Positions 1-9,855 of a stretch of 64,000 nt of DNA are shown in pieces. Every line of letters begins with the position of its first letter. The first letter of the stretch is position 1. Location of the stretch: positions 4,235,501 through 4,299,500 of the forward strand of contig LR882958.1 of the NCBI GenBank assembly GCA_904830895.1, in the 5' to 3' direction. Origin of the DNA: Planktothrix rubescens CCAP 1459/22. Its GTDB lineage: Bacteria; Cyanobacteriota; Cyanobacteriia; Cyanobacteriales; Microcoleaceae. Position numbers and translations under genes: made by a program. The notes below the pieces were generated by a model. The model did not search any database, was not told where the DNA came from, and saw nothing but the letters and a program-made list of their open reading frames with translations.

Positions 1-3000
1 CAACCAGTGTCTTAATTTGTTTGGGGTAATTTCCCTTTGCTAAACCCCAGAGTTGTTGAAGAAAATCGCTATTTTCTAAAGTAAAAATCCGAGATAAATC
101 AATATAATTAATTTCCCTAACCGTTTTTTCTGATAACGGAATAATCAATAAACTTCCGCGCACATAGGTTTTTTCTAATGGGGGAAGATCCAAAAATTGA
201 TCTAAACTTTTTTCCAATTTAGATAAAATTTCCCATCCCAAAGATAAATAAGAAACTTCCTGTTGAGTTTTAGAGGTGACAGGAGGACGATAAATTTCTA
301 TTTTTTGAGCAGATAATAAATTTAATAACCGTTGGGAAATCTCCTTTAAGCGTTGATCTTGACGACGCTTTTTAGACTCTTTTTGGACTTCCTGATATAG
401 AGTTACCATTGACCCTAAAAAACTATCTCCTCCTTGTTTAATCGACTTTCCCCCAATCGGAATCATTACATAACTTTGAAATCCAATTTGACCCAATCCC
501 ACAATTCGAGTCATAATTGATGCTTTTAAAATAATCAGAATATTCAACGCACTTAAACAGGATTCTTGTAAAGAAATTTTGGCTAATTCCTGAGATTGTG
601 CTGGAGATAAAGGGTGATTATCTTGATCAACTTTAGGGGTAAAATAGATTGCTTTATCCGATAGATAAAACTTAATGAATTTTTCCCCTTGATCTAAATT
701 TCCCCCGCGACCTCTATAGATAACTTGAATAATTTCCATTAAATTTTGTTCGATTTGAAACCCTGGAATTTCTACTAAAATATATCGGGTATTCGGGAAG
801 GATAAACCGCGAGATGCGGAAGCAGTCATAAAAATGACATTAACGCTATCCTTATATTTTTGAATGTTGGCGATTTCATCCTCGGAAAGACTCGCATGAA
901 TTTCTAAATAATCTTTTTTTACTTCAAACGTAGGGAGTTGCTTCGCAATTAGATCTATTAGTTTTTTGAGTTTATCCTTATTTTGAATATAGACAATAAT
1001 TTGACCTTGATTTTGATTTAACCGTTGCAAAATATCGGTTTTAATCCTATCGATCATTTGATTAATTAACGTTGAATCATCTTCGTTATTCTCTTGGTCA
1101 TTTACTGAGTGAATCAAAACCTGATAATCTATTGTTAATTGGGAAGCGGGATAGGAATTTGCATTAATTAAAGTTGCTGGGTATTGATTTAAAAATTTAA
1201 ACTGATCCACCCATAAACACTGTTGTTGGGTTTCGGAAACCTGTCGAACAAAAATTTTATCTGCTTGGACGTTTTGATCGGATAAATGACTTTCAACAAC
1301 ATCTTTTAGGGTTAAAGAAGCATCCGCAGTAATCACTTTAATATTAAACCCATAATCAGGATTTAATAAGTCGTATTCTTCGATAAAAGTTTTAATTCCA
1401 TGTAAAAAAGCAACCCCTTCTGATGATCCGGTAATTTCATCAATCATAATAAAAATATTTCTCAACCGTTGCGATAATGCTTTGATTTTTTCAGGAATGA
1501 CACGACGGGTAGAAGAATTATAAACACTGCTAAAAATTCGTTTTAAATGTTTTAAGGTATTTCCTGATCTTGTTTCTTTTAACGCTTGAATTGATGCGGT
1601 CGCAATAATATTATTAGGAAATTGATCGGGATGAATAAAACAAGTATGAATTGCTTCCGATAAACTCGCTAAAACTCCCGCTTGATTTCGCGGTTTTACT
1701 TCTAAAACTTCTTCGGAATTTCGCCCAAATCGTTGAGAGGATTTATACTGATAATCTCGCTCTAAACTAGCATTTAAAAACTTAACTTTTCCGATTTGTA
1801 CATCTTCGGAAAATAGATGATAATAAGATTCAACCGCACAACCGCCTTTTTGATCATTTAAAATTATCGCATTGGTATTTAAACAAATAATGTGATCTTT
1901 TAATTTATGGGTAACAGGGTCGCAAAATTTTTCGATAATATCCCGATTTACTTGAATCCGAGGACTGACATAAAATAATAGTGTTCCTGCTTCTAAATGC
2001 TGTAAAATATAGTTAGCAATAGCTGTGGTTTTACCAATTCCTGGGTTTCCAGTTAGGAATAAATAGGGGATTTTGGGGTCGGAGAGCGATCGCTGAATTA
2101 ACTCAGCATGAGCATCTCTTAGAGATAAGTTTGGTTGGGTTAAATTAAGCGATCGCTGTAAGGTTTCAGGAATATTATCAGCAGTATTAAAAAAGTCTGA
2201 TTCCCCAACTTTTAAGACTTCTTGATGAGCAATAGAGGTAATTTGATTAGGTTGTGCTTCAATAATTTTTCTAACAAAATCACCAGCATTTTTAAAACTT
2301 TTTGACCCATTACTTTTGATCACATTCAAAACCTTTAGTCGGTTTTCTTTAATATTGACTTCTACTTTACCTCGGTAGATATCATAACAAGTTTTTAAAA
2401 TCTTTAATGATGATTCTGAATTCAGAGAAATTCCATTAATCAGGCGATCGCTATATCCAAAACAGTTAAATTTTACGATATCACTAGATTTTAAATAACG
2501 ACTTTGTAACAAAAAATTATAAAAACTCCAAGCATAACTACAAGATTGAACAACTTTTACCCCTTCTTTATCTTTGGTCGAAAAAGCAGAAAAATATTGG
2601 TATAACTTTTGAGAAAAAACCTGATAGTTATTTTTCTCTCCCATATCAATTTCTAACCCACAAAATTGAGATTTTGAGCGAATATAATTCAACTCTTTTT
2701 TTAATAAATTTTTCAGAGTATCAATATTTTTAATATCCTGAATCGCATAGATCGCAGAAGTAGTAAAAGTTGATAAATCTACCACTAAAATTCGATATTG
2801 ATCACGATAGCGAGTCAATAATAACGTATCTGCTCTTAAAAACTCTCCTGTGCGTTTATAGTGAATAATATCAACATTATTAAACCCTTGAGTTTCTAAA
2901 ACATCTCGATAAGCATCATTTTCAGTCTTTTCGATCAGATTAAGACAGTTATCATTATAAAAATCGCACTGAAAATAGACAATCTCAATTTCTCGATCAT

Positions 3001-3307
3001 ATTTCCATCCCGTTGCTTCCCTATATTCTCGAATAAAAGTCACCCCGGAAGTCCAACCTTTTTGCAAAAACAATTTCACCCAAGTCGAAATCGTTTGGCG
3101 ATCTGATCGATCAAAATAATGATTTTCATTCGCTAATTTTTCACTAATTTTATATAGATAAATCTGACTTAGGGGAGTGACATAAATATCCTGATAGGAT
3201 TGTTTAAATTGTCTTTGTTTAAAATAGGTTAAAATTCCTAAATTAAACCCAATTTCAAAGATTCGACCTAATTGTATTCCGAGTTGTATTCCCAATGAAG
3301 ATTTCAT
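1..3307 (-). CDS. Large SF2-like helicase/ATPase, partial (3' end outside window)
   Basis: The frame opens at ATG 3307 and runs uninterrupted to the window edge (1102 residues visible), so the C-terminus is missing. A GAGG ribosome site lies about 9 bases before the ATG. Visible helicase motifs, in order: Walker A GNPGIGKTT (Lys about 426), Walker B IMIDEIT (Asp about 623), a TADAS motif III-like block, QIIVYIQNKDKL (motif IV-like), TASASRGLSFP (motif V) and QVIYRGRGG (motif VI). This is the layout of superfamily 2 helicases, so ATP-driven nucleic-acid unwinding or translocation is expected. The N-terminal 400 residues match nothing I recognise; a block near residues 155-176 (RADTLLL then RILVVDLS) vaguely recalls a PD-(D/E)XK core but lacks the lysine. 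It starts 25 bp after the upstream 1044-aa gene, so the two form an operon. Helicase call is firm; biological role unknown. Confidence 0.75.
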   Translation of the reverse strand, partial: MKSSLGIQLGIQLGRIFEIGFNLGILTYFKQRQFKQSYQDIYVTPLSQIYLYKISEKLANENHYFDRSDRQTISTWVKLFLQKGWTSGVTFIREYREATGWKYDREIEIVYFQCDFYNDNCLNLIEKTENDAYRDVLETQGFNNVDIIHYKRTGEFLRADTLLLTRYRDQYRILVVDLSTFTTSAIYAIQDIKNIDTLKNLLKKELNYIRSKSQFCGLEIDMGEKNNYQVFSQKLYQYFSAFSTKDKEGVKVVQSCSYAWSFYNFLLQSRYLKSSDIVKFNCFGYSDRLINGISLNSESSLKILKTCYDIYRGKVEVNIKENRLKVLNVIKSNGSKSFKNAGDFVRKIIEAQPNQITSIAHQEVLKVGESDFFNTADNIPETLQRSLNLTQPNLSLRDAHAELIQRSLSDPKIPYLFLTGNPGIGKTTAIANYILQHLEAGTLLFYVSPRIQVNRDIIEKFCDPVTHKLKDHIICLNTNAIILNDQKGGCAVESYYHLFSEDVQIGKVKFLNASLERDYQYKSSQRFGRNSEEVLEVKPRNQAGVLASLSEAIHTCFIHPDQFPNNIIATASIQALKETRSGNTLKHLKRIFSSVYNSSTRRVIPEKIKALSQRLRNIFIMIDEITGSSEGVAFLHGIKTFIEEYDLLNPDYGFNIKVITADASLTLKDVVESHLSDQNVQADKIFVRQVSETQQQCLWVDQFKFLNQYPATLINANSYPASQLTIDYQVLIHSVNDQENNEDDSTLINQMIDRIKTDILQRLNQNQGQIIVYIQNKDKLKKLIDLIAKQLPTFEVKKDYLEIHASLSEDEIANIQKYKDSVNVIFMTASASRGLSFPNTRYILVEIPGFQIEQNLMEIIQVIYRGRGGNLDQGEKFIKFYLSDKAIYFTPKVDQDNHPLSPAQSQELAKISLQESCLSALNILIILKASIMTRIVGLGQIGFQSYVMIPIGGKSIKQGGDSFLGSMVTLYQEVQKESKKRRQDQRLKEISQRLLNLLSAQKIEIYRPPVTSKTQQEVSYLSLGWEILSKLEKSLDQFLDLPPLEKTYVRGSLLIIPLSEKTVREINYIDLSRIFTLENSDFLQQLWGLAKGNYPKQIKTLV

Positions 3308-3332
3308 TGATTATTCCTCAATTATTGATAGT

Positions 3333-6300
3333 TTATGAATCATAGATCGCACTTCTAACAACGGTTAAAAATGCTAAAGTATTAAAATTAATATTTTTGG
3401 GGGAGTAAGTAAAGTTTGAAAGTGTTCCTAATCCTTGATCTCCGATGAGTTTACTATAAGGATTTAATTTTAAGACGATATTAGTATTTTTATTATAGCT
3501 TTTTTCATAACGGGAAAAATGAAACAAGAGAATATAGTTTAAAATCGTTTTTTGGAGAGGAGAAGAATCATCTAATAATCCTGAAATCACATCTCTTGTA
3601 TGTTCATCATCATACATATTTAACAGGGTGCTATAGCAAACTACACTATTAAAAAAGGTTCGGTTTTGATCAACCGTAACTCCGGTAAACAAATTTAAAA
3701 ATACTTTAGTCCTTTGACTGGGATCATTAGAGAGTTTTTTCAATTCTTCTACATCGGGAATATAGAAAGATTCTTGATTTTTAGTTTTTAAATTCAAAGC
3801 AGGATAGGTATCCATAAAAATCGGATAAAGTTTGAGATCAGATTTTCCATCTTTGAGGTATTTAATCACCGTTTCCGACATAAAAAATAGGGAATCTGGG
3901 TCAGATTCTGAGCGAATTAATCCTAAACGTCTACTGTAGGGTGCTTTCGCAACATATAAGAAGTGTCGGTATCCTTTTTCTTCATATAATTTAGTGATTT
4001 CATCTCGAATTACGGTTGGTTGTTGATACAATTGTTCATGCTTTTCGTTACTAGAAAAGGTTTTAAAGTTATTGATTTGAATGACATCGGGTTTATCGGT
4101 ATCTGTTTCAATTAAAACAATCTCACCGTAAATATTAGAAATTCGTTGGTTTTTATCCGGTTCATTCCAAACCGCATCACTCACCCAACTGGAAACAACA
4201 ACAATTGCTAATTTATCTAATTGTGGTTTAAAATCACTATTAAATTTAAACCGTTTGGGAAGTAGGGAATAGAGGGAAGATAAAGCATTTCTAACTCGAT
4301 AGTTAAAACCTTTATCCTCCCTATTCTTAGTATTTAATCCCTGATCATTTGCTAAACAATCTCGTCTTAAAATATGTGCTAAAGATCGAGTTAAAGTCCT
4401 TAAATATTTCTCATCTTCGCTATCATCAATAGTACTTTGTACATGAAATCGTAAGATAGGAATAAACAAATTTTGGTCTTTGAGGGGATTTTGACAAACG
4501 CTAATACACAAATAGGTTAATAAACTAAAGACTTGGCGATAAATTCTTGCTTCAGGAGATTGATTATCTTTAAATATAGTTGCTCTCAGCTTGGTAATAT
4601 TATAATAAATTGCTATTAGTTTTTTCTCTTTAAAATGTTCCTCGTATAGAGAAAGAGGTTTGAATTTTTCGCCTGGTTTTTTTATGTCTTCAGCGTTTAA
4701 TTCTCGGATCGGATAAAACACCACAGGTAGTGCTTTAATCCCATCAATATTATACCTGAGAGCAAATTTCTGTTCTTCCTCTACGGTAAAATAACGAACA
4801 TCATCAAAGGTAAAAGTTACTTCTAAAGATGCTAAAGAGTCTTGACTTAGTTGATTTTCTCCGACTTTTAAATAAGCTAATGCTTCCCTCGCTGATGAGC
4901 GTGAACGACTGGTATCATCATCTTCTAGGTTAATTTTAAAAAAGTTTTGACTATTAATAATATCTATCGGTTTTTGGTGAAGAATATCCTTGTGTAAACG
5001 CAATTTAACTGTTTTTTGTTCATAATTTAAAACTGTTTTTTGGATTAAAAAATCTTTCAAAAATGATTTTAAACGATTGACTTTGCGATTGACTTCCCAA
5101 GCAGAATCAGCAATTTTATTTTTGATGGTCGATAAGAGTTGAGTAATTGCTTCTGGGTTGGTTTGATTGGACTGAAAACCTCTTAAAACTTCCTGTTCAA
5201 ATTGAACAATAGGGTTATATTCTTCGTCGGGTGTGTTTCCTGTTTCATCAATCGCAAAAATCAGATAATACAAACAAACGTTTTTTAAAACTCTAGTTTT
5301 AAAACTTTTTGCTTTGTTAGAATTTTGTAAATCTTCTCGATGTCGCGGACTGGTGGGATCGATTTCTGCGATATGATAATCTAAGGAAGATTTTTCATTA
5401 TAAGCACTAACTGAACCATTCAGCTTTAAACGGATTCCCAAATTAAATTCTTTGAAATTATTACTATTGCGGTTATAACTTTCACCAATTACTCCTTCAT
5501 AATTAGGAATAATGGGTAAACTATCAAACGCATCGGATTGAGAAAATACGGTTCTGAGATTAACGGTTTCTCCTAAATAAGTAATGTCATAATGGGCGTT
5601 ATCTAAATTGGGATCATTGATATATTCAATCACTATTTTTAAGCGATTAATTAAGGTTTGTAATAGCATTAAATCAGGAGAATTTGCGTTAGAATGAGTT
5701 TTTTGCCATCCTTTTTTGAGATACTCTAAATAGTCGATTTTCAGATCGCGTAAAAGACGAGGTAACGCTTCTTGATCGATAATGCTTCTGAGGTTATTTA
5801 AACTAGAGTCGGGTCGATCTGATAGTTCATTCAATAACCCATTGAGATCCTGTCTTTCTGATGAATTTTCATCGGTAATAGTATTAATATGATGTCGAAT
5901 ATATGCGCATAAATTGTCTTGAAAATCTGCTAATCCTGTAAACCGAATATTAAAATGATGTGCTTTAATATTTGCATGACTTCCACTGCTACGATTGGGG
6001 GTAAAACTATTTTCAAGGGTTAGGCGTTTGGAGGTAAATGGGGGTTGTTTGCTAAAATCATAGTTGAAGGGAAGGGAATCTTTTTCCTGATTAAATTCTC
6101 CCAAATCGCTACAAATCTTAACTAGGATATTTTCAGGAGATTCGGGTTGACAAGCTAGATTTAATTTTTCTTTTAATAACTGTTGAATTTGTCTAATTTT
6201 ATCACAGAATTTAGCAGTATCTTCAAAATTAACGGTGGCGGCGCGAATTCCAGTGGTTTGGGTTAAGGGATTGAGGGTTTTATTTTCAGTTGCTATTTTA

Positions 6301-6467
6301 TAGGCGAAATCATAAGCACGAATTAGGAGACGATTTCGATCGGGAGAAAGTTGAAAAATAGGGGTAGTTGTTGTTTTAAGTTCTTTTAGAATAGCATCTA
6401 ATAAGGGAATATAATCTAATTTGGGAAGGGAATCGAAGGTTTCTTGTAGAATATGTTGATCAGTCAT
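3333..6467 (-). CDS. Unrecognised ~1044-aa protein, possible inactive RNase H/PIWI-like C-terminus
   Basis: I chose ATG 6467 over an in-frame TTG six bases upstream; neither has a strong ribosome site. No signal peptide or membrane segment is visible. Residues 1-300 look mainly helical and 300-700 mixed. The last about 290 residues read like an RNase H fold: a hydrophobic strand (KLAIVVVSS, about 752), a second strand (YGEIVLIE), a helix (IRDEITKLYEEKG), a strand HFLYVAKAPYSRR (about 838), then GVTVD (about 928), LQKTILNYILLF (about 976) and NPYSKLIGDQGLG (about 1007). The order and spacing resemble the PIWI domain of Argonautes, but the catalytic acidic residues are not evident. It precedes the helicase gene by 25 bp and is divergent from Uma2 (50 bp apart). 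Protein existence is firm; the PIWI reading is inference only. Confidence 0.6.
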   Translation of the reverse strand: MTDQHILQETFDSLPKLDYIPLLDAILKELKTTTTPIFQLSPDRNRLLIRAYDFAYKIATENKTLNPLTQTTGIRAATVNFEDTAKFCDKIRQIQQLLKEKLNLACQPESPENILVKICSDLGEFNQEKDSLPFNYDFSKQPPFTSKRLTLENSFTPNRSSGSHANIKAHHFNIRFTGLADFQDNLCAYIRHHINTITDENSSERQDLNGLLNELSDRPDSSLNNLRSIIDQEALPRLLRDLKIDYLEYLKKGWQKTHSNANSPDLMLLQTLINRLKIVIEYINDPNLDNAHYDITYLGETVNLRTVFSQSDAFDSLPIIPNYEGVIGESYNRNSNNFKEFNLGIRLKLNGSVSAYNEKSSLDYHIAEIDPTSPRHREDLQNSNKAKSFKTRVLKNVCLYYLIFAIDETGNTPDEEYNPIVQFEQEVLRGFQSNQTNPEAITQLLSTIKNKIADSAWEVNRKVNRLKSFLKDFLIQKTVLNYEQKTVKLRLHKDILHQKPIDIINSQNFFKINLEDDDTSRSRSSAREALAYLKVGENQLSQDSLASLEVTFTFDDVRYFTVEEEQKFALRYNIDGIKALPVVFYPIRELNAEDIKKPGEKFKPLSLYEEHFKEKKLIAIYYNITKLRATIFKDNQSPEARIYRQVFSLLTYLCISVCQNPLKDQNLFIPILRFHVQSTIDDSEDEKYLRTLTRSLAHILRRDCLANDQGLNTKNREDKGFNYRVRNALSSLYSLLPKRFKFNSDFKPQLDKLAIVVVSSWVSDAVWNEPDKNQRISNIYGEIVLIETDTDKPDVIQINNFKTFSSNEKHEQLYQQPTVIRDEITKLYEEKGYRHFLYVAKAPYSRRLGLIRSESDPDSLFFMSETVIKYLKDGKSDLKLYPIFMDTYPALNLKTKNQESFYIPDVEELKKLSNDPSQRTKVFLNLFTGVTVDQNRTFFNSVVCYSTLLNMYDDEHTRDVISGLLDDSSPLQKTILNYILLFHFSRYEKSYNKNTNIVLKLNPYSKLIGDQGLGTLSNFTYSPKNINFNTLAFLTVVRSAIYDS

Positions 6468-6517
6468 TGTCAAAATATGTCATAATTGTATGAGTCATAT
6501 CCATATTACAATCTTTT

Positions 6518-7120
6518 ATGGTAACTGTAAAGTCTGAATTAACCACAAAACCCCTAAACCTAGCTGAATATCTCAATTACAACGATGGTACAGATACTTG
6601 CTATGAACTGGTTAACGGAGAACTAATTCCCATGAGTTTAGGAACAGGAAAACACGGAGAAATTGCTGATTTTCTTAACAGCGTGTTTCGAGCAGAAATC
6701 CAACGCAATCAACAAGCGTGGGTTTCTAAACAAATGATTATTGGTATTCAATCTCCCCGTGGGGGAAGATGGGATACAGTTAGAATTCCTGATGTTGTTA
6801 TTTTACCACTAGAACAATGGCGAGAATTACAAAATAAAGAAGCGGTGATTACACTGAATCAACCCGTACCTTTATTAATTGTTGAAGTGGTGAGTGAGTC
6901 TACTAAACGAACGGATTACCGCGCCAAAAAAGCGGAATATAGTGTTTTGGAAATTTCTGAATATTGGATAGTTGATCCTTTGGAAAATCAAGTCACAATT
7001 CTGACATTAGTTGATGAATGGTATGATAGCTTGGAGTTTACTGGAGGTGCTCAAATTCAATCAAAAACTTTTCCTAATCTGGAACTAACAGCCGAACAAA
7101 TATTACAAGATCAGATATAA
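6518..7120 (+). CDS. Uma2 family (DUF820) endonuclease-like protein
   Basis: A 200-aa protein of the Uma2/DUF820 family, very abundant in cyanobacteria. The PD-(D/E)XK-type core is visible: RIPDVVILP, then [23 protein letters not shown], then SEYWIVDP near the C-terminus. The fold predicts a nuclease, although most members have no shown activity and their role is unknown. The length is typical. The start ATG 6518 lies 50 bp from the divergently transcribed operon of the 1044-aa protein and helicase, so the short gap must carry promoters for both directions. It is one of three Uma2 genes in the window, and nothing ties it functionally to its neighbours. Confidence 0.88.
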
Positions 7121-7171
7121 TATCTGATCTATTTCTGTCTAATTTTCCTATACTGGTTATTATTAACTGTT

Positions 7172-8206
7172 ATGATTACTACTACAAACTCCGCATCAAT
7201 TCCCCTACTAGGGTTATCTTTAGAACAACTCACCGACTGGGTAAAACAGCAGGGACAACCTGCTTATCGAGGGAAGCAATTATATGATTGGATTTATCAC
7301 AAAGGCGCAAAATCCCTAGGGGAAATTACGGTATTTTCTAAACAATGGCGGGAGACAGTTGGGGATGTTAATATTGGTCGTTCTAGTATTCATTATAAAG
7401 CGATCGCTCCTGATAAAACCATTAAATATTTATTAAAATTAGCCGATGGTCAAATTATTGAAGCGGTGGGAATTCCTAGCGAAAAACGCTTAACGGTTTG
7501 TGTTTCTTCCCAAGTTGGTTGTCCGATGGGGTGTGATTTTTGTGCGACGGGAAAAGGCGGCTTTACTCGCAATTTAGAACCCCATGAAATTATAGACCAA
7601 GTGTTAACAGTCCAAGAGGATTTCCAACGACGAGTTAGTAATATTGTATTTATGGGAATGGGAGAACCTTTATTAAATACAGAAAACGTGATTGCGGCGA
7701 TTAAATCCTTGAATCAAGATGTGGGAATTGGACAACGAATGATCACCGTTTCTACGGTTGGTTTACGGGGAAAAATTCGGGAATTTGCAGAATATGATTT
7801 ACAAGTAACTTTAGCCGTGAGTTTACACGCTTCCTATCAAAATATTAGAGAAGAATTAATTCCCAGCGCCAAAAATTATCCCCTATCCCAATTATTTGCA
7901 GAATGTCGAGAGTATGTTAAATTAACGGGAAGAAGAATTAGTTTTGAATATGTCCTTTTAGCGGGATTAAATGATTTACCCGAACACGCTATAGAATTAG
8001 CAAGTCAGTTAAGAGGATTTCAAAGTCATGTTAATTTGATTCCCTATAATCCGATTCACGAAGTCGATTATAAACGACCGAATACCCAAGGAATTAATGA
8101 TTTTATGGATATATTAAAAGAGCGTAAAATTGCTGTGAGTGTGAGATATTCCAGGGGTTTAGAAGCGGATGCAGCTTGTGGACAATTACGCGCTTCTCAG
8201 GCTTAG
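7172..8206 (+). CDS. rlmN: 23S rRNA (adenine-2503-C2) / tRNA A37 methyltransferase RlmN
   Basis: A radical-SAM enzyme that puts a C2 methyl group on A2503 of 23S rRNA and, in many bacteria, on A37 of some tRNAs. The N-terminal accessory domain ([17 protein letters not shown]) is followed by the [4Fe-4S] motif CPMGCDFC (Cys117, 121, 124), the SAM-contacting GMGEPLLN, and the C-terminal ADAACGQL, whose Cys336 is the catalytic cysteine resolving the covalent RNA intermediate. All key residues are present and 344 aa is the usual length. A strong hairpin follows the stop, so it probably forms its own transcription unit. Confidence 0.97.
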
Positions 8207-8221
8207 ATTTTCAAGAGTATA

Positions 8222-8267
8222 TTTTTATTATAGTGGTATATTTTCCCCTATACCGCTATAATAAAAA
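8222..8267 (+). terminator. 19-bp-stem hairpin after rlmN
   Basis: Two 19-base arms (8222-8240 and 8249-8267) are complementary except for one G-T position, with an 8-base loop TTTTCCCC. The arms are A/T rich at the base and end in T/A runs, so it can act in either direction. It sits 15 bp after the rlmN stop and 25 bp before the permease start, which suggests it separates the two transcription units. Confidence 0.7.
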
Positions 8268-8292
8268 CCCAAAATACAAGATCTAATATACA

Positions 8293-9510
8293 ATGAATTC
8301 TATACAATCCCCGCCCAGCCATCAACCGCCTGAAACCATTGCTTTAAGCACAAAGGAATGGTTACAAAAAAACTTATTTAATACTTGGTATAATATCCTA
8401 ATTACGATTGGAATTGGTTCCCTGTTATTATCAATGCTAACGGGGTTTATCTCTTGGGCTTTTACTACTGCTAAATGGGCTGTAATTCCGGCTAACTTAC
8501 CCCTATATTTTGTCGGACGTTTTCCCTCGGATCAATATTGGCGATTGTGGATAATGTTAGGAATGATTGCGATTTTTTCTGGGATAACCTGGGGATTTTT
8601 AGCTAGAAATACTAGAATTTTATTTAGTAAAAATATCTTAATTGGGATTAGTTTAATCGGAATTTTAGCGGTTATTACTCCCACTCCAATAGTTTTTCGT
8701 CTGCTATTAATTGTGATGCTATTATTATTGGTAGCGGGTGCTTGGGGGGGTAAAACCATTGGAAATACTCAACCAAAACTGGGAGAGTGGTTGCCATTTT
8801 CTTGGTTTTTATTACTATTAATTTGTGTTTGGTTGATTGGCGGTGGACTGGGATTAAAAGTAGTCGAAACCAACTTATGGGGAGGACTGATGTTGACATT
8901 ATTGATGTCAATTATTAGTATTTTATTATGTTTTCCCATCGGAATATTATTAGCATTAGGACGACAAAGTAGTTTACCTGTAATCAGAATTTTATCAACG
9001 GTTTATATTGAAGTAATTCGAGGATTACCCTTAATTACTATTCTATTTATGGGTCAAATTTTACTGCCTTTATTTCTCCCCGAAGGAGCGCGACCCGATC
9101 GCATTTTACGCGCTATTATTGGATTAACTATGTTTAGTTCAGCCTATTTAGCGGAGAACATCCGAGGAGGGTTACAAGGTATTCCCAGAGGTCAAACTGA
9201 AGCCGCCAAAGCATTGGGATTAAATACACCTTTAACGGTGAGTTTAATTGTTTTACCCCAGGCCTTAAAAGTGGCAATTCCTTCAATTGTCGGTCAGTTT
9301 ATTAGCCTATTCCAAGATACAACCTTACTGTCAATTGTGGGATTAATGGAATTATTAGGAATGAGTCGATCTATTTTAGCCAACCCTAAGTTTTTAGGAC
9401 GTCATTTAGAGGTTTATATTTTCGTTGGGATTTTGTATTGGGTGTTTTGTTATGGGATGTCGATAGCTAGTCAAAAATTAGAACAACAATTGAATACGGA
9501 GCATAAATAA
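8293..9510 (+). CDS. Polar amino-acid ABC transporter permease (HisM/BztC/NatH type)
   Basis: An inner-membrane permease of the polar amino-acid uptake family. It is 405 aa, longer than the about 230 aa of simple HisM/GlnP permeases, because of an N-terminal extension with extra membrane segments (about 35-55, 80-105, 115-155); this is the layout of BztC/AapM/NatH. The core permease domain lies at about 200-395 and holds the EAA loop (ENIRGGLQGIPRGQTEAAKALGL), which docks the ATPase, and an SIVGLMELLG segment. No substrate-binding protein or second permease is beside it; a matching ATPase gene lies at 25142, 15.6 kb downstream. In Anabaena natH and bgtA are adjacent (from memory), so this separation may be derived. 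Confidence 0.88.
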   Translation: MNSIQSPPSHQPPETIALSTKEWLQKNLFNTWYNILITIGIGSLLLSMLTGFISWAFTTAKWAVIPANLPLYFVGRFPSDQYWRLWIMLGMIAIFSGITWGFLARNTRILFSKNILIGISLIGILAVITPTPIVFRLLLIVMLLLLVAGAWGGKTIGNTQPKLGEWLPFSWFLLLLICVWLIGGGLGLKVVETNLWGGLMLTLLMSIISILLCFPIGILLALGRQSSLPVIRILSTVYIEVIRGLPLITILFMGQILLPLFLPEGARPDRILRAIIGLTMFSSAYLAENIRGGLQGIPRGQTEAAKALGLNTPLTVSLIVLPQALKVAIPSIVGQFISLFQDTTLLSIVGLMELLGMSRSILANPKFLGRHLEVYIFVGILYWVFCYGMSIASQKLEQQLNTEHK

Positions 9511-9739
9511 ATAAATAAACCCTTTTTGTTTGGGGTGAATAGAATAGAATAGTTTTGGGCGAATAGTTTTGGGCAAATAGAATTCGCGGCTACACAAACA
9601 AAGTCCGCCTGCGCGGACTAAATGATCATGCAGGTAATTCAAGCATATTTTGTATTTTATCCTTCTTTTTTTGGGTTAGATAATAATTCTTGTAAAACGG
9701 GAGTTTCTGAGTCCAATTTATTTGGGTTTAGTTGGTTTA
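9511..9739. other. Intergenic stretch with a short palindrome
   Basis: No convincing gene. After the permease stop come short repeated phrases (GAATAGTTTTGGGC twice) and then a GC-rich palindrome at 9602-9619. A forward reading frame covering 9622-9903 has no recognisable features and overlaps a degraded toxin fragment on the other strand, so I do not call it. Confidence 0.5.
9602..9619. repeat. Palindromic repeat, AGTCCGC...GCGGACT
   Basis: Perfect 7-bp arms around a CTGC loop. Preceded by GAATTCGCGGCTACACAAAC; I recall similar sequence between genes in related cyanobacteria, so it is probably a dispersed repeat rather than a dedicated terminator. Confidence 0.55.
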
Positions 9740-9855
9740 GAGTCGTAAGTCTATTCTATACTTTTGCGATCGCGCAAACGATTAAACCATTGATCAAAAG
9801 GTATTTTTCCATCGGATGCAACATAACGCCTAATTTCCTTGGGTTGTGTTTCCAT
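9740..9855 (-). pseudogene. Fragment of a RelE/HigB-like addiction-module toxin gene (copy A)
   Basis: Reading from ATG 9855, the first 30 codons (METQPKEIRRYV, DGKIPFDQWFNRLRDR) match the intact start of the copy at 16922. A loss of about 4 bases after the GATCGC site shifts the frame and a stop follows within a few codons. Sequence identity with copy B ends at about 9740. It is clearly a dead fragment. Confidence 0.7.

Follow-up and report, generated by a model that had tools for sequence, protein, structure and literature searches.

In a 64,000-nucleotide stretch of the genome of Planktothrix rubescens CCAP 1459/22 (contig LR882958.1, C1:4235501-4299500 in the whole genome; hereafter the window), two adjacent genes, here called A and B, look, from their conserved sequence features, as if they encode a DNA-handling machine of two parts that has yet to be described. 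We hold with moderate confidence that A and B form an obligate two-protein DNA machine that would most likely limit mobile DNA, either plasmids or phages. The two very large co-oriented genes reported 25 bp apart by the initial annotation were recovered as described. Gene A, taken from the list of open reading frames (ORFs), occupies positions 3333..6473 of the minus strand and encodes 1046 amino acids (aa) from a TTG codon, or 1044 from an in-frame ATG two codons downstream, at 6467. Gene B lies downstream of A on the same strand at a spacing of 25 bp, with its ATG at 3307 and 1102 of its 1228 aa encoded within the window (1..3307); the leftward extension that the annotation had proposed completed it, its end lying 380 bp beyond the window edge (L002:13122-16808). 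The closest named relatives come from Planktothrix-type genomes, with 92–94% identity in A. Across four Planktothrix-type sequences (six pairs for each gene) the ratio of nonsynonymous to synonymous changes by the Nei-Gojobori method was 0.14–0.22 for A and 0.15–0.22 for B, both ORFs being under purifying selection. Given that the pair is conserved across dozens of species, chance ORFs are excluded.

Of the 61 loci inspected (47 + 14, with L006 and the short loci L038-L043 left out), 58 have the two genes co-oriented with A upstream, A being broken in two of them (L046, L080); the number of independent loci is lower because the four Planktothrix-type loci, as well as the plasmid loci L086 and L088, are near duplicates. 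The refuting condition named in the initial annotation, that homologs of the two always lie apart, therefore failed. In 49 loci A and B are within 130 bp of each other, as single intact-looking frames or cut ones, and in 11 of the 47 they overlap by 1–14 bp. Wider spacings were seen in L055, L056, L058, L066 and L070 (225–1991 bp) and in L134 (471 bp), while in L063 the two genes are 7.5 kb apart, with an Eco57I-type restriction-methylase gene (6679-9843) and three small ORFs between them. The three exceptions are genome G131 (L062), in which intact A and B are found on different contigs, and two cases lacking A, namely G306 (L136) and a Stanieria plasmid (L115). The distance matrices of A and B, compared over 42 pairs, correlate with r of 0.990, the best of 1000 permutations reaching 0.40, and the trees of the two proteins share 32 of 39 splits. 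A correlation of this kind is expected from an obligate complex, although shared descent alone also gives a high value. Taken together, A and B behave as one unit in inheritance, loss and transfer, partly on plasmids.

In a phylum-wide sample of 386 genomes, 104 of which belong by hand count to the order of the window's genome, A was matched in 44 genomes and B in 49, the window's own being included in both counts. One match to A, in G269, covers 71 residues in a frame with stops and was discounted as chance, leaving 43 genomes, all of which also have B. Of the six genomes that at first appeared to contain B only, five yielded a diverged A directly upstream of B when searched with a joint A profile (one of these, L131, is truncated), and the remaining one, G306, lacks A and carries B in broken form; thus, A accompanies B in 48 of the 49 genomes. 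The 49 fall within the window's order with a single exception, G027, and B is present in 9 of the 10 genomes of the window's genus. A 7-kb pair of genes is hence retained by just under half (48/104) of the genomes sampled from the order, and the larger unknown in it lies outside the libraries used. A search of 72,556 plasmids recovered B in 11 records, 10 of which also carry A. Six cyanobacterial plasmids with B were typed as conjugative, the Stanieria plasmid holds a B fragment, and a diverged branch is found on two Acinetobacter, one Cupriavidus and one Acetobacter plasmid, with A adjoining B in each. Fifteen copies without obvious breaks reside on contigs of over 2 Mb, which on account of this length were taken as chromosomes. 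Decayed copies were encountered in G326 (A with stops, beside an intact second pair), G127, G051, G306 and G304 (partly contig ends), in G199 (a B fragment beside A, in addition to the intact-looking diverged pair L134), in L131, where A is reduced to 344 aa, and on the Stanieria plasmid. A separate curiosity is contig C100 of G261 (L006), in which residues 2-606 of A are fused in frame to residues 718-1228 of B in a single ORF of 1116 aa, through either a deletion or an assembly artefact.

The initial annotation had described the second gene as an SF2-like helicase with complete ATPase motifs, and this was upheld. A Helicase_C domain (PF00271) was detected in residues 758-865 of B (713..1036, minus strand) with an e-value of 6.7e-7 and 30 bits against a cut-off of 23.5, as computed on the 1102-aa part within the window, and the same domain was matched by e-value in 6/6 diverged B members. 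For conservation we used an alignment of 44 B sequences, which omits proteins of less than 1000 aa with the exception of an Acetobacter B of 998 aa. The Walker A motif (motif I; GNPGIGKTT, residues 420-428, 2024..2050, minus strand) is typified by G420 and P422-T427, present in 44/44, as are the D623-E624 of the Walker B motif (motif II; 1436..1441, minus strand) and the Q861, Y864, R865, R867 and G868 of motif VI (QVIYRGRG, residues 861-868, 704..727, minus strand). In motif V, T828, R833-G834 and S836-P838 are invariant or nearly so. With Walker A, the DE box, motifs V and VI and the Helicase_C domain all in place, B is by its motifs a superfamily-2-type helicase. Searches of the PDB with B profiles returned mostly pieces of DEAD-box and superfamily-1 helicases with e-values of 0.001 and worse, and the PADLOC models gave weak matches. 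Of 21 members, 15 matched mad8 (best 2.6e-5) and 3 MkoA, in both cases over the P-loop region, and matches of single members reached 8.5e-7.

The helicase core begins near residue 400, and the N-terminal approximately 390 residues have no library match, in agreement with the unmatched N-terminus of about 400 residues noted initially. Within this region we observed a strongly conserved constellation of residues between positions 154 and 258 (2534..2848, minus strand), of the form GxxxxxD...(D/E)xS...KxxxKxxQxxxY, comprising G154, D160, S179, K247, K251, Q254 and Y258, each in 44/44 sequences, and an acidic position 177 occupied by D (37 sequences) or E (7). In RecB-like nucleases the PD-(D/E)XK pattern consists of a D followed by (D/E)xK. 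The canonical xK is not found in B, which has xS179 throughout although D160 and D/E177 are present. We infer from these motifs that the N-terminus of B resembles a degenerate PD-(D/E)XK nuclease site, in which the usual lysine would have been lost and lysines would be supplied by the following helix. An hhalign comparison of the region with 20 Cas4 sequences gave 11.8 against 12.4 for shuffled columns, and a RecB/Cas4 relationship thus receives no signal. Pfam detects no nuclease in the C-terminal part of B, where no search beyond Pfam was made.

Protein A belongs to an unnamed family outside all the protein-family libraries searched here, as the initial annotation had suspected. The window protein has no match of substance: no Pfam family was found at e-values up to 1, and none in NCBIfam or PHROGs, both of which were searched with this protein only. 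When 30 A members were run singly against Pfam, the 25 families listed of 31 were each matched by one member, with e-values of at least 0.008, and seven diverged relatives gave a best value of only 0.04. PADLOC yielded six one-member matches (best e-value 0.0066), and A profiles produced no convincing match among PDB sequences. An alignment of 45 A proteins (omitting those of less than 900 aa, which are broken or cut copies) reveals conserved features. The codons for Gln711-Gly712 (4338..4343, minus strand) specify residues conserved in 44/45 and 45/45 sequences, respectively; K754 and D766 are each found in 42, and Y947, H985, L1003, P1005 and A1034 in all 45. Point mutants at the invariant residues listed for A and B would allow both genes to be tested directly.

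In the mechanism that we favor, A would recognize or hold the target and recruit B, which would translocate and unwind through its C-terminal two-thirds, while its N-terminal 390 residues, with the invariant D160, K247/K251 and QxxxY along with D/E177, may act as a diverged domain of the PD-(D/E)XK type that cuts or binds DNA. By analogy, and without implied membership, this division of labor would resemble that of DdmDE and ApsAB, in which a recognition protein is combined with a helicase-nuclease. A role in limiting mobile DNA is favored by the carriage on plasmids, the patchy presence, the decay, and the genes for restriction or defence in the vicinity of certain copies. In the Nostoc N6 plasmid, about 9 kb separates A from the DISARM gene drmD; the Acinetobacter piscicola locus has HNH endonuclease and WYL regulator genes as well as methyltransferase genes nearby; in Acinetobacter PK01 a DUF4011-MTES gene is near the pair; and single cyanobacterial loci lie close to DUF499, an Eco57I methylase, a type I R-like protein or a C5 methylase. 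If the pair does restrict mobile DNA, it would help explain why transformation and conjugation meet barriers in these cyanobacteria.

Several observations weigh against such a role. B went unmatched in 50,697 phage records, and five scans of viral contigs recovered no relative. The nuclease identity of B stands on a motif, the profile comparison with Cas4 being negative. Further, the pair sits in a fixed neighborhood of ordinary-looking genes in 12 loci of one family (f6) and 7 of another (f1). The f6 neighbors were read as Fur, a kinase and a stomatin-like protein and those of f1 as PheT, Uma2 and a peroxiredoxin-like protein, of which FUR, the kinase and Uma2 were confirmed by Pfam and the stomatin-like, PheT and peroxiredoxin-like assignments are readings from sequence. 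We also surveyed 36 contexts, taking the two ORFs closest to the pair on either side (135 proteins); as this survey had no matched control it is not an enrichment test. The commonest Pfam families among the best 25 of 166 were Uma2 (8), PIN (5), M50 peptidase (4), AAA_21 (3) and PDZ (3), and the PADLOC families at 1e-15 (best 25 of 86) were each matched by 2–4 proteins, so that no clear defence island emerges among the matches listed for these nearest genes. Finally, a cellular role would be equally consistent with purifying selection and vertical inheritance. The defence-type architecture proposed in the initial annotation stands in part: plasmid carriage, patchiness, decay and the defence genes near some copies agree with it, whereas the function itself is so far unsupported, the nearest genes listed give no clear signal and the neighborhoods are stable in two lineages.

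Cellular DNA maintenance is the main rival to restriction of mobile DNA. Under this alternative, which we regard as somewhat unlikely, the pair would be a module for DNA repair or replication restart, with B as its helicase, an N-terminus that perhaps binds DNA rather than cutting it, and A as a structural partner. The neighborhoods fixed in two lineages, the purifying selection on both genes and the lack of a clear defence island among the nearest genes listed from the 36 contexts are all compatible with it, but B is unmatched in 56 of the 104 sampled genomes of the order, copies have decayed repeatedly, and the pair is carried by conjugative plasmids.

DdmDE and ApsAB each combine a helicase-nuclease with an Argonaute-like protein (PMC12409362 and PMC11096173), and we accordingly tested A for a relationship to the Argonautes. 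In hhalign comparisons, using as null 40 sets of shuffled columns, residues 600-1046 of A scored 17.5 against the MID-PIWI region of 13 cyanobacterial prokaryotic Argonautes (pAgos; L106 left out), with shuffled columns giving 14.9 (standard deviation 3.1, maximum 28.4). In the same test pPIWI-RE, serving as positive control, reached 31.7, compared with 15.4 (standard deviation 2.4) for shuffled columns. A compared with pPIWI-RE itself gave 12.9 against 15.3, i.e. no similarity. With a crude home-made secondary structure added, three settings placed A 12th, 30th and 31st among 31 profiles and the control 1st, 1st and 2nd. Secondary structure alone placed A 4th and is uninformative, as the control itself was just 6th, and in the untrimmed profile comparison with pAgo and pPIWI-RE even the control went undetected. 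An Argonaute or PIWI interpretation of A is hence unsupported by the profile test that the control passed.

We therefore regard it as improbable that A is a divergent MID-PIWI, guide-using protein with B as its helicase-nuclease. When A was compared by eye with Argonaute MID features, the crude order of strands and helices in residues 670-890, together with Q711-G712 followed by K754, resembled a MID-PIWI junction, and the partner would be of the same kind as in DdmDE and ApsAB (PMC12409362 and PMC11096173); against this stand the negative pAgo and pPIWI-RE comparisons, with the control positive, and the lack of conservation of YxxxK in the 45 A sequences. Comparably doubtful is the fuller scenario, in which a very divergent MID-PIWI-like guide binder and a helicase whose N-terminal nuclease has its lysine displaced would constitute an independently assembled Argonaute-type restriction of plasmids or phages, standing beside pPIWI-RE and DdmDE/ApsAB, common in the order and shared on plasmids with Proteobacteria.

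The comparison with the named systems shows both likenesses and differences. As outlined in PMC12409362, the plasmid-defence system DdmDE resembles the pair in having two genes, a large superfamily-2 helicase with a nuclease part (putative in B) and a partner that at first lacked recognized domains, and in its link to plasmids, but the DdmD nuclease is C-terminal whereas the putative site of B is N-terminal. DdmE is a pAgo, and the profile tests show no such relationship for A. The anti-plasmid system ApsAB, likewise a helicase-nuclease with a second protein, is reported from some cyanobacteria, and ApsB has a QG motif comparable to the conserved QG of A (PMC11096173). The full ApsB motif Y[X]3K..QG..K is only partly matched in A (Q 44/45, G 45/45, K754 42/45). 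By the description in the same paper, ApsA has GFGKS, DELH, QAVGRVER and a C-terminal nuclease, in contrast to the GNPGIGKT, DEIT, QVIYRGRG and N-terminal site of B. A search for ApsA-like motifs in the 386 genomes gave one exact match, in G286.

According to PMC3702460, pPIWI-RE systems have three genes in the order restriction endonuclease, DinG and pPIWI-RE, and DinG has a conserved iron-binding cysteine-rich region after strand 2. Like these operons in cyanobacteria (L093-L096), the pair joins a helicase to a protein of approximately 1000 aa, with similar sizes; it differs in having two genes, A and then the helicase, and the three-gene order was not found. No cysteine occurs in the columns of B conserved in at least 93% of the 44 sequences, leaving no counterpart of the DinG region. 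RNaseH_pPIWI_RE (PF13032) is absent from the matches listed (best 25 of 31 families) for 30 A proteins and from those of seven more, and none was found in the genome of the window (G000). The sampled cyanobacteria do contain pPIWI-RE operons: PF13032 was detected in 4 of 146 genomes, with three full-length genes in L093 and L094, a broken last gene in L096 and a contig end in L095, and G131 holds both such an operon and an A/B pair. DISARM, Druantia and Hachiman also associate a helicase with a large partner. The PADLOC protein models, theirs included, gave no match to A or B beyond weak ones such as mad8 and MkoA in B, which accords with the earlier statement that neither protein fits these defence systems. 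These sequence comparisons place the pair outside the pPIWI-RE systems and reveal no match to any DISARM, Druantia or Hachiman model in PADLOC, and a literature search with six accessions found no paper on it.

It is distinctly improbable that the pair is a module serving the mobile elements themselves, through plasmid maintenance, transfer or entry exclusion, and was later fixed in some chromosomes, for although it rides on six conjugative cyanobacterial and four proteobacterial plasmids, some of these copies with resolvase, integrase or transposase genes nearby, the 15 apparently unbroken copies on presumed chromosomes speak against it.

Turning to the flanking genes, the Acinetobacter piscicola pair is followed on the same strand by genes for an HNH endonuclease and a WYL regulator (L111 20917-22917). 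To the left of the window, 106 bp after B and on the same strand, lies a gene for an AAA_21/AAA_15 ATPase of 386 aa (L002:11855-13015). It was considered as a third core gene and rejected, since it was found only in the three Planktothrix-type loci whose flank is long enough (L002, L003, L005) and does not cluster with any locus beyond them. On the other side, the diverging Uma2 gene noted initially was located by the ORF list and Pfam at 6518-7120. The 5.7-Mb genome of the window has 97 Uma2-family matches, and this neighbor was accordingly treated as uninformative background and rejected as a partner of the pair. The 44 bp between A and Uma2 (6474..6517) are AT-rich with short palindromes and, given the divergence of the two genes, must hold both start regions; this gap may be a shared promoter or operator.

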